From: Brachypterus glaber | Taxonomy: Eukaryota; Arthropoda; Insecta; Coleoptera; Kateretidae | Length of the DNA: 64,000 nucleotides | Assembly (NCBI GenBank): GCA_958510825.1 | Contig: OY294048.1 | Span: 15,083,589-15,147,588 of the forward strand | Reading direction: 5' to 3' | In this document: in pieces, positions 41,380 to 57,752 of the stretch | How positions within the stretch are numbered: position 1 is the first letter of the stretch | How the letters are laid out: each line of letters starts with the position of its first letter | The notes under the pieces: generated by a model | The model's database searches: none | What the model saw: the letters and a program-made list of their open reading frames with translations, nothing else | Told to the model about the DNA's origin: nothing | Made by a program: the position numbers and the translations under genes

Positions 41380-41476
41380 TAGGGACACTAGATCTAGGTC
41401 TTAAGTTAGCAAGGCGACAGACTTGTCTGACTTGTCTGTCGCCTTGCTAACTTAAGACCTAGATCTAGTGTCCCTA
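41380..41476. mobile_element. Palindromic hAT-type MITE, copy A
   Basis: TAGGGACACTAGATCTAGGT through GGCGACAGAC is mirrored to TGTCCCTA at the right end. The 97-bp element is flanked by GATTCCTC at 41372-41379 and 41477-41484. The undisturbed site TGATTCCTCAGGTC is present in the related segment at about 35308, which confirms the duplication. Confidence 0.93.
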
Positions 41477-57200: not shown

Positions 57201-57752
57201 AACAACCCAAAATGACGACCGAGGGTAATTATAACACACGGCGTGCGTAATGTTGCATGTGAAACGTTTACAGTTCGTGTGTTTTATGTCATTTACAATG
57301 TGTAGATAAATAACTATAAGGTTTGTTAATTTTTTTAACCAAGTCAACTTTTTAGCATAATATGGTGTTGTTATAATTAATTAATATTAATACTATAATT
57401 AGGTAATAAAAATATGTTATATTTTATACCTTACAACTAGGGACACTAGATCTAGGTCTTAAGTTAGCAAGTCGACAGACTGTCGCCTTGCTAACTTAAG
57501 ACCTAGATCTAGTGTCCCTACTTACAACTGGTAAGCTGAAAGACCTCAGTCAATGGCCTTTTAATACTTTTTGTTGAATTAAAAAAAATATTATAAATAA
57601 ATAATATTATAATATTAATATACTAATTAATTAATATTAATTATATTCCTTTTATTTTTAGATTGCGTAACTCAAGCACGTCTAATCTGCTGATCCATCG
57701 TGGGACATTACTGACAGGCGAAATCAGCGACGATGATCTTAATGAGTATTAA
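42183..57752 (+). CDS. CCDC102A: CCDC102A ortholog, coiled-coil protein, complete, nine exons
   Basis: Exons 42183-42296, 44688-44973, 47132-47314, 48958-49153, 50965-51190, 53558-53764, 55017-55291 and 57662-57752 join in phase to 525 residues (human CCDC102A has 550); a further exon at 56221 is alternative. The N-terminus [20 protein letters not shown] is polar. Exon 2 carries the family signature [20 protein letters not shown], followed by [10 protein letters not shown], nearly as in vertebrates. The middle (exon 3) is acidic and low-complexity; from exon 4 to the end the protein is a long heptad coiled coil ([43 protein letters not shown]). The start has a strong context (AAAATGG), with no other in-frame ATG before it. 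Vertebrate family members associate with the centrosome and with myosin-like coiled coils; here the role is inferred. The introns, about 1.2 to 2.4 kb each, are crowded with transposon remains. Counting the alternative exon there are nine exons. Confidence 0.95.
43440..43970. mobile_element. Nested inverted-repeat elements in CCDC102A intron 1
   Basis: An inner hairpin at 43480-43564 has arms GCGGCAAATCCAGATAGCAA and the mirrored TGCTATCTGGATTTGCCGC. Around 43570-43955 a second element has imperfect arms with GTCCATAATAGACGTCCGC on the left and GCGGACGTCTTTTATGGAC on the right, plus C runs and GGACGTCC words. GTCCGCCCTCCTTAG near 43455 and CTAAGGAGGGC near 43947 form an outer pair. Confidence 0.75.
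44225..44482. mobile_element. MITE with 8-bp duplication and internal minisatellite
   Basis: Ends CGAGGGGTTTATTTATTG and the exact complement CAATAAATAAACCCCTCG, flanked by TTGCACTA at 44217-44224 and 44483-44490. The interior is a run of about twenty irregular units of the type ACAATCNTCT. Perfect 18-bp ends and a perfect duplication indicate a recent insertion by an 8-bp-duplicating transposase such as hAT or P; the superfamily is open. Confidence 0.9.
44688..44973 (+). CDS. CCDC102A: CCDC102A exon 2 (signature region)
   Basis: Acceptor TTATTTTAG|GC and donor GCAG|GTAAAT, phase 0 to phase 1. It encodes [16 protein letters not shown], the [13 protein letters not shown] signature and the first coiled coil. 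Confidence 0.95.
45428..45487 (-). repeat. TAA microsatellite, 3' tail of a non-LTR element
   Basis: Sixty bases of ATT units on the plus strand (TAA on the minus strand) directly follow the 3' side of the minus-strand RNase H fragment at 45487-45935. TAA tails are usual for I-type non-LTR elements. Confidence 0.8.
45487..45935 (-). pseudogene. Decayed non-LTR retrotransposon, RNase H end and zinc knuckle
   Basis: The minus strand reads [24 protein letters not shown] residues (end of an RNase H domain with GNEAAD), then, after a stop and frame changes, [15 protein letters not shown], then [18 protein letters not shown] and [20 protein letters not shown], the Cys/His C-terminal motif of I/Jockey-group ORF2. 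A TAA tail follows. At least one stop and a frameshift make it dead. It lies antisense in CCDC102A intron 2. Confidence 0.85.
45936..46264. other. Intron 2 sequence with a short duplication
   Basis: CTTTTTGTTTCTACTACTAA, TGCCATCTGTTCAC is repeated about 65 bp later as CTTTTTGTTTTTACTATTAG, TGCCATCTGTTTAC. The remainder (to 46264) has no feature I can support. Confidence 0.5.
46265..47131 (+). repeat. Degenerate tandem repeat reaching the exon 3 acceptor
   Basis: GGGGGTAAATGTAAAGTTTA words alternate with blocks of the type TAAAACCTTGAAAA, TAGTGTTATT, ATATTTTTTAGCTAATTT, GGTTTAGTGCGTCAAA, about six irregular units of 90-200 bp. The last unit (ACCTTGAAAACTGG, ATCTTATAATTTGTTATTCAG) contains the exon 3 acceptor. 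Confidence 0.8.
47132..47314 (+). CDS. CCDC102A: CCDC102A exon 3 (acidic linker)
   Basis: Acceptor TTGTTATTCAG|GT and donor CTGCAAG|GTAAAA, phase 1 to phase 1, 183 bp, so it could be skipped without a frameshift. It encodes a Ser/Glu-rich linker ([20 protein letters not shown] onwards). Confidence 0.9.
47350..48010. mobile_element. Nested foldbacks in CCDC102A intron 3
   Basis: Outer imperfect arms pair TAGACATTTTTTAGCGTTAA near 47380 with AACGCTAAGAAATGTCTTAT near 47992, and ACGTCACACATTC with GACGTCACATATTTG. An inner hairpin (47553-47742) is nearly perfect: ACGTCTACGTCC, CAACTCGGTCTTTCGCGCTG pair with CAGCGCGAAAGACCGAGTTG, GGACGTAGA, and the centre is a mirrored AACACCAAAAC stem. Confidence 0.85.
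48340..48905. repeat. Dispersed repeat, inverted copy of 31217-32090
   Basis: It has the same modules in reverse: units with CACCCCC and CCCCAATATACAAATTTTC, then AACAATCCCGAGCGAGAACT, TTTATATCGACATAAAACG and TTTTTGCACGAATACAAGGC. It ends about 50 bp before exon 4. Confidence 0.85.
48958..49153 (+). CDS. CCDC102A: CCDC102A exon 4
   Basis: Acceptor CTCTCTTTAG|GT and donor CGAGA|GTAAGT, phase 1 to phase 2. It encodes [20 protein letters not shown] through LQIER, the start of the second coiled coil. Confidence 0.93.
49376..50210 (+). pseudogene. Non-LTR retrotransposon RNase H and C-terminus, interrupted
   Basis: The frame reads [19 protein letters not shown], then, after a MITE (49436-49496), [20 protein letters not shown] (RNase H, with GNESAD), then [10 protein letters not shown] and [13 protein letters not shown] before it breaks. 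From about 49815 it resumes with [20 protein letters not shown] and [21 protein letters not shown], the Cys/His zinc motif of non-LTR ORF2. About 100 bp of foreign sequence and a frame change lie between. A TTA tail (50448-50463) closes it. Confidence 0.85.
49436..49496. mobile_element. Palindromic hAT-type MITE, copy B
   Basis: 61 bp, TAGGGACACTAGATCTAGGT to TGTCCCTA, flanked by TGTGTGGG at 49428-49435 and 49497-49504. Its left arm is shortened in the middle. It sits inside the RNase H fragment, and the reading frame is consistent once the insert and one flank copy are set aside. Confidence 0.92.
50554..50883 (-). pseudogene. C-terminal fragment of a CR1-like reverse transcriptase
   Basis: The minus strand reads [52 protein letters not shown]. 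The pattern LRGH, K, R, FFSxR, WNxLPxxVV, FKxxxD is the C-terminal region of CR1-like non-LTR ORF2 proteins. The RT core is absent. It is antisense in CCDC102A intron 4, ending 80 bp before exon 5. Confidence 0.85.
50965..51190 (+). CDS. CCDC102A: CCDC102A exon 5
   Basis: Acceptor TTTAAATTTTTAG|CG and donor GCAGAG|GTTGGT, phase 2 to phase 0. It encodes [20 protein letters not shown] through [11 protein letters not shown], a continuous heptad coil with balanced codon use. Confidence 0.94.
51284..51970 (+). mobile_element. Non-coding element ending in an AGTGCCGATGT hairpin, copy 1
   Basis: It starts ACTAGATGAAACGTTGCAAG, has CGTTTACCCCCAAAATCTAA, a GACA-rich stretch and GACTTTTCGGCGAAGATTTC, and ends with the stem ACATCGGCACTCTTAGTAG...CTAAGTGCCGATGT. 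The word ACATCGGCACT also occurs near its left end. Copy 2 lies about 1.37 kb away in the same orientation, in the same intron. Confidence 0.8.
52092..52654. other. Intron 5 DNA between two repeat copies
   Basis: It opens with GGTAAATGGATACCTCGATC, a word also at 25152 and 28067. The rest is AT-rich without a recognised feature. Confidence 0.5.
52655..53327 (+). mobile_element. Non-coding element ending in an AGTGCCGATGT hairpin, copy 2
   Basis: It follows copy 1 throughout: ACTAGATGAAACGCTGCAAG, AACATCGGCACT, ATCTCGAAAACAGTG, GGAGTTTTACCCC, CGTTTACCCCCAAAATCTAA, a (GACA)n tract at 53157-53185, GACTTTTCGGCGAAGATTTC and the terminal stem CATCGGCACTCTTAGTAG/CTAAGTGCCGATG. Confidence 0.82.
53558..53764 (+). 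CDS. CCDC102A: CCDC102A exon 6
   Basis: Acceptor TTGTCGTTTTAG|CT and donor AATAAG|GTGAGT, phase 0, 69 codons ([20 protein letters not shown] through QQELSDKNK). The family resemblance is strong. Confidence 0.95.
53879..54640. repeat. Repeat pair and hairpin in CCDC102A intron 6
   Basis: ACAGAATGAATCCATTCTAG, then GTTAGAATGAGCACATGTAGTG near 53895 is matched by ACAGAATGGAATCAATATTCC, GTTAGAATAAACACATGTAG near 54556. Between them, 54436-54537 has mirrored ends (GTATGGAATAG/CTATTCCATAC) around a CpG-rich core. Confidence 0.65.
55017..55291 (+). CDS. CCDC102A: CCDC102A exon 7
   Basis: Acceptor AATATTTTCAG|GA and donor CACACAAG|GTAAGT, phase 0 to phase 2. It encodes [20 protein letters not shown] through VQLQHLHT, a long coiled coil. 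Confidence 0.95.
55880..55985. repeat. Inverted repeat with ATTTTTTATCCTACACA arms
   Basis: TATTTTTTATCCTACACA is mirrored by TGTGTAGGATAAAAAATA about 70 bp later, with GACGTCTC/GGAGACG near the middle. It is non-coding, in intron 7. Confidence 0.75.
56221..56289 (+). CDS. CCDC102A: CCDC102A alternative exon 8
   Basis: Acceptor CTACAAAACCCAG|TA fits the phase of exon 7. It reads [19 protein letters not shown], and runs to TAA at 56287-56289 if used as a terminal exon (adding VSK). A donor GC|GTGAGT at 56276 would join it to the last exon out of frame, ending after two codons. Either way the usual C-terminus is replaced by a short acidic tail. Open frame, splice sites and acidic content support it; no transcript evidence is available to me. 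Confidence 0.6.
56322..56597. mobile_element. MITE in intron 7, AACTCTTCTCTCTAGAATA arms
   Basis: AATGCTCAACGAACTAATAA, CTCTTCTCTCTAGAATA at the left, and TATTCTAGAGAGAAGAG through AGAGCATT at the right, pair with small gaps. The centre has a second stem of ACAATAACAGTTACTGGTAA type. Confidence 0.8.
56624..57163. mobile_element. MITE in intron 7, CATTAGGGTATT ends
   Basis: CATTAGGGTATT, AAAAAAACGAAATTTT pairs with AAAATTTGTG, AAATGCCCTAATG at the right, and subterminal GCCAAATTTCAGCTC with GAGCTAAAATTTGGC. About 540 bp and non-coding. The CATTAGGG tip resembles that of 25303-26248 but flanks do not show a clear duplication. Confidence 0.75.
57438..57520. mobile_element. Palindromic hAT-type MITE, copy C
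   Basis: 83 bp, TAGGGACACTAGATCTAGGT, TTAAGTTAGCAAGTCGACAG and its mirror to TGTCCCTA, flanked by CTTACAAC at 57430-57437 and 57521-57528. It lies in CCDC102A intron 7, 140 bp before the last exon. Confidence 0.93.
57662..57752 (+). CDS. CCDC102A: CCDC102A last exon
   Basis: Acceptor TTTTATTTTTAG|AT. Joined to exon 7 it gives Arg, then [29 protein letters not shown] and TAA. The human protein also continues LR after the coil, which supports the direct 7-to-9 splice. Confidence 0.88.

Follow-up and report, generated by a model that had tools for sequence, protein, structure and literature searches.

The window analysed here is a 64,000-nucleotide stretch of the genome of the beetle Brachypterus glaber (contig OY294048.1, positions 15,083,589 to 15,147,588), in which the gene CCDC102A hosts or adjoins three near-palindromic inserts, designated A, B and C, that are true transposon copies and shrunken relatives of elements of up to 4.7 kb. 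CCDC102A, whose best named protein match comes from the beetle Aethina tumida (84% identity), occupies positions 42183-57749 of the forward strand, with some exon borders approximate; exons 1-4 as listed (42183-42296, 44688-~44975, ~47134-~47316 and 48957-49154) are followed by further exons at 50966-51193, 53558-53764 and 55014-55292 and by two alternative last exons at 56219-56281 and 57660-57749. Copy A (41380-41476) lies approximately 0.7 kb upstream of the start codon, copy B (49436-49496) in the intron between exons 48957-49154 and 50966-51193, and copy C (57438-57520) in the last intron of the isoform with terminal exon 57660-57749; none of the three is assigned a strand. A preliminary description of this DNA had rightly placed two of the inserts, B and C, in the introns of one gene.

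All three copies share an identical end, TAGGGACACTAGATCTAGGTCT, and each stands inside perfect duplications of exactly 8 bp, namely GATTCCTC at 41372-41379 and 41477-41484 for A, TGTGTGGG at 49428-49435 and 49497-49504 for B, and CTTACAAC at 57430-57437 and 57521-57528 for C (left copies given on the forward strand), so that the coordinates and duplications first assigned to these inserts are exact. Their initial characterization as almost wholly palindromic applies to A, which is 97 bp long with perfect arms of 43 bp and matches its own reverse complement at 92/97 positions, and to C (83 bp, 80/83), but not to B (61 bp, 46/61), where the outer 22 bp pair and the asymmetric centre is a remnant of one arm. 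Single-strand folding pairs A and C nearly end to end and B chiefly via the same outer 22 bp, and the centre of A contains a 9-bp direct repeat consisting of two copies of ACTTGTCTG. With up to 3 mismatches allowed, the 20-mer TAGGGACACTAGATCTAGGT returns eight matches in the window, six of which are exact and correspond to both arms of A, B and C, compared with no matches for the same search in 100 shuffles.

Two empty sites support the insertion of these sequences. For A, an uninterrupted GATTCCTC is present at 35309-35316 on the forward strand, inside a related repeat (35224-35493) that matches the flanks of A at 82% over 271 bp; the empty site noted earlier near 35308 is genuine, with the qualification that it belongs to a diverged paralogous repeat and not to an allele. 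For B, in silico removal of the insert and one duplication yields a reading frame that runs across the site, and the rejoined peptide matches RNase_H (PF00075, E 7.6e-7) over residues 4-43, spanning the joint, which places B within a fragment of a non-long terminal repeat (non-LTR) retroelement. The window yielded no further copy of the flanks of C that would span its site.

A search of the 648-Mb assembly (842 contigs) returned 1309 exact copies of the 20-bp end (664 + 645) and none of the reversed-pattern control. The 100 places listed, which fall within the first 46.9 Mb of contig C1, were fetched as 74 loci, and both ends, each with at most 4 mismatches, are present in 54 of them; the other 20 have one end within the stretch fetched, which reaches about 0.3 kb past that end, and some may be long elements rather than relics. 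Loci selected by their central sequence (15, L051-L065, plus 35 more) are excluded from these unbiased counts, save four of the 15 that the list of 100 places also contains. The both-ended loci comprise 47 short copies of 54-98 bp and seven longer ones of 228, 275, 433, 832, 2677, 2857 and 4656 bp. Duplications agree at 8/8 positions in 27 of the short copies, at 7/8 in 8, at 6/8 in 5 and at 5 or fewer in 7, and in the longer copies at 8/8 in six and at 7/8 in one. With terminal inverted repeats (TIRs), a duplication of constant length, short size, non-coding sequence and many copies, the family has the properties of miniature inverted-repeat transposable elements (MITEs), and no open frame longer than 117 amino acids was found in the three longest copies. 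These results support the earlier view of a non-autonomous DNA transposon family with TIRs, 8-bp duplications and very small copies, and the genome search for ends, lengths and flanks adds a revision: the sequence is also the terminal part of larger elements, of up to 4656 bp with the same ends and 8-bp duplications, while the short copies are bounded insertions themselves. The sampled density amounts to 1.6 loci per Mb (74 in 46.9 Mb) or 0.10 per 64 kb, and by hand arithmetic that assumes an even spread, at least three loci are expected in about 1.6 of the ~10,100 genome windows of 64 kb, and about 0.3 clusters of three within 16 kb in the whole genome; among the listed places, C1:7,099,802-7,162,903 also holds three loci. 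The grouping of A, B and C is mildly unusual in these terms, and the local burst initially suggested is neither required nor excluded by it.

In the short palindromes, the two terminal arms of larger elements, some of them foldback-like, are joined to one another. The four longest copies (832, 2677, 2857 and 4656 bp) carry an arm that, past the extent of the short copies, runs on at either end as GGCGACAGACAACGGGAAACGTCAGAA with a few mismatches; in the 228- to 433-bp copies a single end has this continuation. The TIRs measure about 1.1 kb (92%) in the 2857-bp copy, about 0.5 kb in the 2677-bp copy and 163 bp in the 4656-bp copy, self-complementarity reaches 88% along the entire 832-bp copy, and the 228-, 275- and 433-bp copies have TIRs of just 44-51 bp; four of the seven longer copies are foldback-like, with TIRs of more than 100 bp. 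Among 50 short copies (the 47 sampled plus A, B and C), 46 retain 17-46 bp of both arms, and the copies differ mainly at the centre, as the preliminary description had noted. The junctions are diverse: a 14-letter exact centre is seen once only in 34 of the 47 sampled short copies, and the arms leave part of the junction uncovered in 26 of the 50, a maximum for copies with inserted bases, since counting breaks off at clustered mismatches and L058, a 72-mer with two substitutions, is among them. At the other junctions the arms overlap by at least 2 bases (17 copies) or by 0-1 (7 copies). An 88-bp ancestral form guessed from A is but one of many possible intermediates, the longer members continuing the arm differently (GACAGACAACGGGAAACG).

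One junction recurs. It joins 36 + 36 bp without a spacer around the centre GGCGCC, and this 72-bp junction (37 and 37 bp with a 2-bp overlap) is common to 9 of the 50 short copies, the next commonest being common to 3; in the unbiased C1 sample, 14 of the 47 short copies are 72 bp long, ten of them with this same centre. The 20-bp centre of the 72-bp form occurs exactly at 77 places genome-wide, and the 50 listed among these were examined. They include 35 full 72-mers (at most 6 mismatches), with 17 exact 72/72 palindromes, and 15 sequences with at least 11 differing positions, several through one-sided loss of bases. The duplications of the 35 full 72-mers agree at 8/8 positions in 23 copies, all 23 being different, at 7/8 in 6, at 6/8 in 1 and at 5 or fewer in 5, as compared with none at 8/8 and one at 7/8 among 1000 8-mer pairs drawn at random from these loci, and 12 of the exact palindromes have perfect duplications. 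Because an exact centre recurs at many unrelated sites with different perfect duplications, we infer that the 72-bp form was itself mobilised and spread, and this palindrome may rank with the smallest mobile DNAs of this type. Four copies of the 72-bp type (L105, L106, L108 and L110) have lost a few bases to one side of the centre, with the second duplication shifted in accordingly, and are visibly palindromes that decayed after insertion. In another copy, L065, a perfect 72-bp palindrome with the duplication TCTCAGGT, the octamer is found three times, also preceding another family end about 230 bp upstream.

We favour, as the probable explanation, a model in which A, B and C are non-autonomous members of a large family of cut-and-paste DNA transposons in Brachypterus glaber, whose members terminate in TAGGGACACTAGATCTAGG and generate 8-bp duplications. 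Loss of the interior would have joined the two terminal arms to give palindromes of 54-98 bp, a transposase acting in trans would recognise no more than about 36 bp per end, and at least the spacerless 72-bp palindrome (36 + 36) would have moved and multiplied as such. C, in its 83-bp form with a centre that recurs in L083, was perhaps mobilised likewise, and B, with a centre private in the sample, may have shrunk in place or during earlier excision and gap repair. Several points weigh against this model. The private centres in 34/47 copies and the unexplained bases at up to 26/50 junctions are as expected if many copies shrank singly, and the 72-bp form could possibly have been produced by repeated identical deletion of longer copies. 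Furthermore, a transposase bearing these ends was not found among 30 of the 44 hAT loci and one of the 18 Mutator-like element (MULE) loci of the genome, and an end of 36 bp would be out of the ordinary for hAT, since characterised transposases of that group need approximately 100-220 bp per end (PMC10368747, in excerpt).

Mobilisation by a hAT transposase proper, as implied by the label hAT-type that the copies were first given, is a real possibility that we entertain with some doubt. The 8-bp duplications speak for it, as do the end starting TAGGG, which fits the hAT terminal pattern, the presence in the window of two other hAT-like elements, each between perfect 8-bp duplications (25303-26248 and 26650-26808), and the 44 hAT matches in the genome. 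However, in 30 of these loci, taken with flanks of ±1.5 kb, the family ends were not found (none with fewer than 5 mismatches, and six chance-like matches at 5). Indeed, 22 of the 30 (L143-L164) are near-identical copies of one, perhaps young, hAT family in which each match lies in a 317-residue open frame, and since their visible end reads CAGTGTTCCCAACC, the other lying outside the stretch fetched, this family is different from that of the palindromes. The 59 distinct rejoined target sites, taken from every fetched copy whose duplication is perfect, including those selected by their centre, and read in both orientations, define the palindromic motif AGGnRTTwwAAYnCCT with RTTwwAAY as the duplication, where G reaches 46% at the second and third bases outside and T just 7% at the first duplication base. 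The Ac-group hAT motif nTnnnnAn is found in 12 of the 59 sites (20%) against 12% expected, and nnnTAnnn, the Buster-type hAT target motif, in 2 of 36. Finally, the three longest copies have TIRs of between 163 bp and 1.1 kb and the copies of 228-433 bp have TIRs of 44-51 bp, as opposed to the 10-25 bp of hAT elements (PMC3942097, in excerpt). The hAT assignment is thus unproven.

The long TIRs combined with 8-bp duplications could alternatively point to a MULE or to the P/Galileo family, an origin that we consider plausible but short of convincing. MULEs typically have TIRs of more than 100 bp and duplications of 8-10 bp (PMC5225508, in excerpt), a combination present here in four of the seven longer copies, and 18 MULE matches occur in the genome; Galileo, of the P superfamily, has long Foldback-like TIRs and duplications of 7, rarely 8 bp (PMC4168063, in excerpt). 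Against this, the family ends were absent from the single MULE locus examined of the 18, the motif AGGnRTTwwAAYnCCT of the 59 sites is unlike the ANAGT/ACTNT of P and 1360 or the GTATTAC of Galileo (PMC4168063, in excerpt), and the TIRs of the 228-, 275- and 433-bp copies measure just 44-51 bp.

A different reading, which we judge somewhat unlikely, accepts the insertions but not the mobility of the palindromes: each short copy would have inserted as a long foldback and then lost its centre through cruciform or hairpin processing or microhomology-mediated deletion, so that the palindromes would be scars without mobility of their own, with the 72-bp form as a preferred outcome. Long foldbacks do exist, as exemplified by the 832-bp copy, and the private centres, the extra bases at up to 26 junctions and the overlaps of at least 2 bases in 17 are all in line with singly occurring collapse. 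B can be derived from the 88-bp form by a 27-bp loss at a 4-bp microhomology and C by a 5-bp loss at a 2-bp one, and L105, L106, L108 and L110 have shed bases post-insertion. Yet collapse in place sits uneasily with the recurrence of one exact centre at 77 places, although its overlap is 2 bp as opposed to 4 bp in B, and with the 17 letter-perfect 72-mers among the 50 places examined.

Within the favoured model of a mobilised 72-mer, one specific proposal appears improbable to us: that the palindrome, as two abutting identical 36-bp ends, would be mobile as it is and a full substrate for an 8-bp-duplicating transposase, taken up as a putative extruded cruciform or hairpin. Uptake in such a form, which would pair both ends, is suggested by the stiffness of a 72-bp duplex, which can hardly be bent into a synapse. 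Among the remaining candidates, Tc1/mariner, whose target duplication is TA and to which the human MITE Made1 belongs, is dismissed by the 8-bp duplications in the window, none of the three being a TA duplication. Chance origin is rejected by the lack of end matches in shuffles and with the reversed pattern and by random 8-mer pairs that almost never agree, and a structured RNA by the location of the sole tRNA-like match of the window elsewhere. As to viral or prokaryotic kin, the end and an arm piece are absent from the viral_contigs collection, the phages collection gave no match, and two genome_contigs matches, one in CTAG-rich sequence and the other in a palindrome-free part of an Anaerococcus scaffold, look accidental.

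The end requirements of characterised systems are considerably larger, with about 220 bp for each end of Hermes, 200 and 150 bp for Tol2, about 100 bp for Tag1 and at least 200 bp for Ac, and the two ends of Hermes are bound differently (PMC10368747, in excerpt). If the 72-mer is mobile, its transposase would depart from those of Hermes, Tol2, Tag1 and Ac in end requirement, and two identical spacerless 36-bp ends would show how small a cut-and-paste substrate can be in nature, test the need for unlike ends and offer a very small donor. The family also provides a large natural series of foldback centre loss, with identical ends and sampled lengths between 54 bp and 4.7 kb. A close parallel is Made1, derived from Hsmar1, an 80-bp near-perfect palindrome with two 37-bp TIRs around 6 bp and likewise an end-only derivative of a larger transposon (PMC1784062, in excerpt); the beetle family differs from it in its 8-bp duplications, its sampled range of 54-98 bp, its spacerless recurrent form and its larger relatives with long TIRs. 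Galileo, of the P superfamily in Drosophila, shares long, dynamic TIRs resembling Foldback, but has duplications of mostly 7 bp and the target GTATTAC (PMC4168063, in excerpt). Muta1, a MULE of Aedes aegypti with more than 300 non-autonomous derivatives, resembles the beetle elements in its long and often truncated TIRs and 8-9-bp duplications, the latter without sequence preference, and differs in the subterminal tandem repeats of its TIRs (PMC5225508, in excerpt). The BuT2-derived hAT MITEs likewise have 8-bp duplications and lack a transposase of their own, but carry 12-bp TIRs and are larger, with short copies of 532-927 bp (PMC3942097, in excerpt). Transposable elements have similarly been seen in the palindromic repeats of C. 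elegans and in palindromic, MITE-like clusters from Anopheles gambiae, the latter measuring 430-1678 nt (PMC3212995, in excerpt). The end sequence, in four spellings, was not found in the literature searched, and with Repbase and Dfam outside this comparison the novelty of the family is not shown.

Two further traces of the family in the window had gone unnoticed in the preliminary description. A one-armed relic at 26691-26737 (forward strand) retains 47 bp from a single end, 1 of them mismatched, and its preceding 8 bases were not found repeated downstream; it is nested inside a 159-bp hAT-like MITE (26650-26808) with ends CAGGGGCGTAACCA / CATAGGCGTAACTA and its own perfect 8-bp duplication, ATATCAAG. 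A possible one-ended relic at 51199-51217 (forward strand), with a 15-bp exact match, GACACTAGATCTAGG (51203-51217), and 1 mismatch in 19, adjoins the end of a CCDC102A exon and may be a relic or a chance match (BLAST E 0.004). The 8 bases that precede it, GTTGGTAT, also form the perfect duplication that flanks L045, a copy on contig C1, by chance or as a favoured target.

Other elements of the window include a 795-bp element at 19713-20507, with TIR TAGGGTCACTCGATC (13/15 like TAGGGACACTAGATC) and near-duplications AATAAAAC/AATACAAT, which perhaps represents a related, older family; a 946-bp hAT-like element at 25303-26248, with TIR TAGGGTGG(C/A)ACGAA and the perfect 8-bp duplication TTATGCAT; and a 258-bp element at 44225-44482, with TIR CGAGGGGTTTATTT and the perfect duplication TTGCACTA. 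The window also holds a DnaJ-like gene, whose best named protein match is likewise from a beetle, a BEL/Pao-like integrase region (DUF5641, Integrase_H2C2, with rve under the cut-off) at 61461-63323, and a reverse transcriptase (RVT_1) at 2064-3512. Lastly, nested inverted repeats of 78 and 65 bp, at 97% and 95%, lie at 58417-59081 within further complementary flanks, GCACTGCTCTACTACAGAATTTT.

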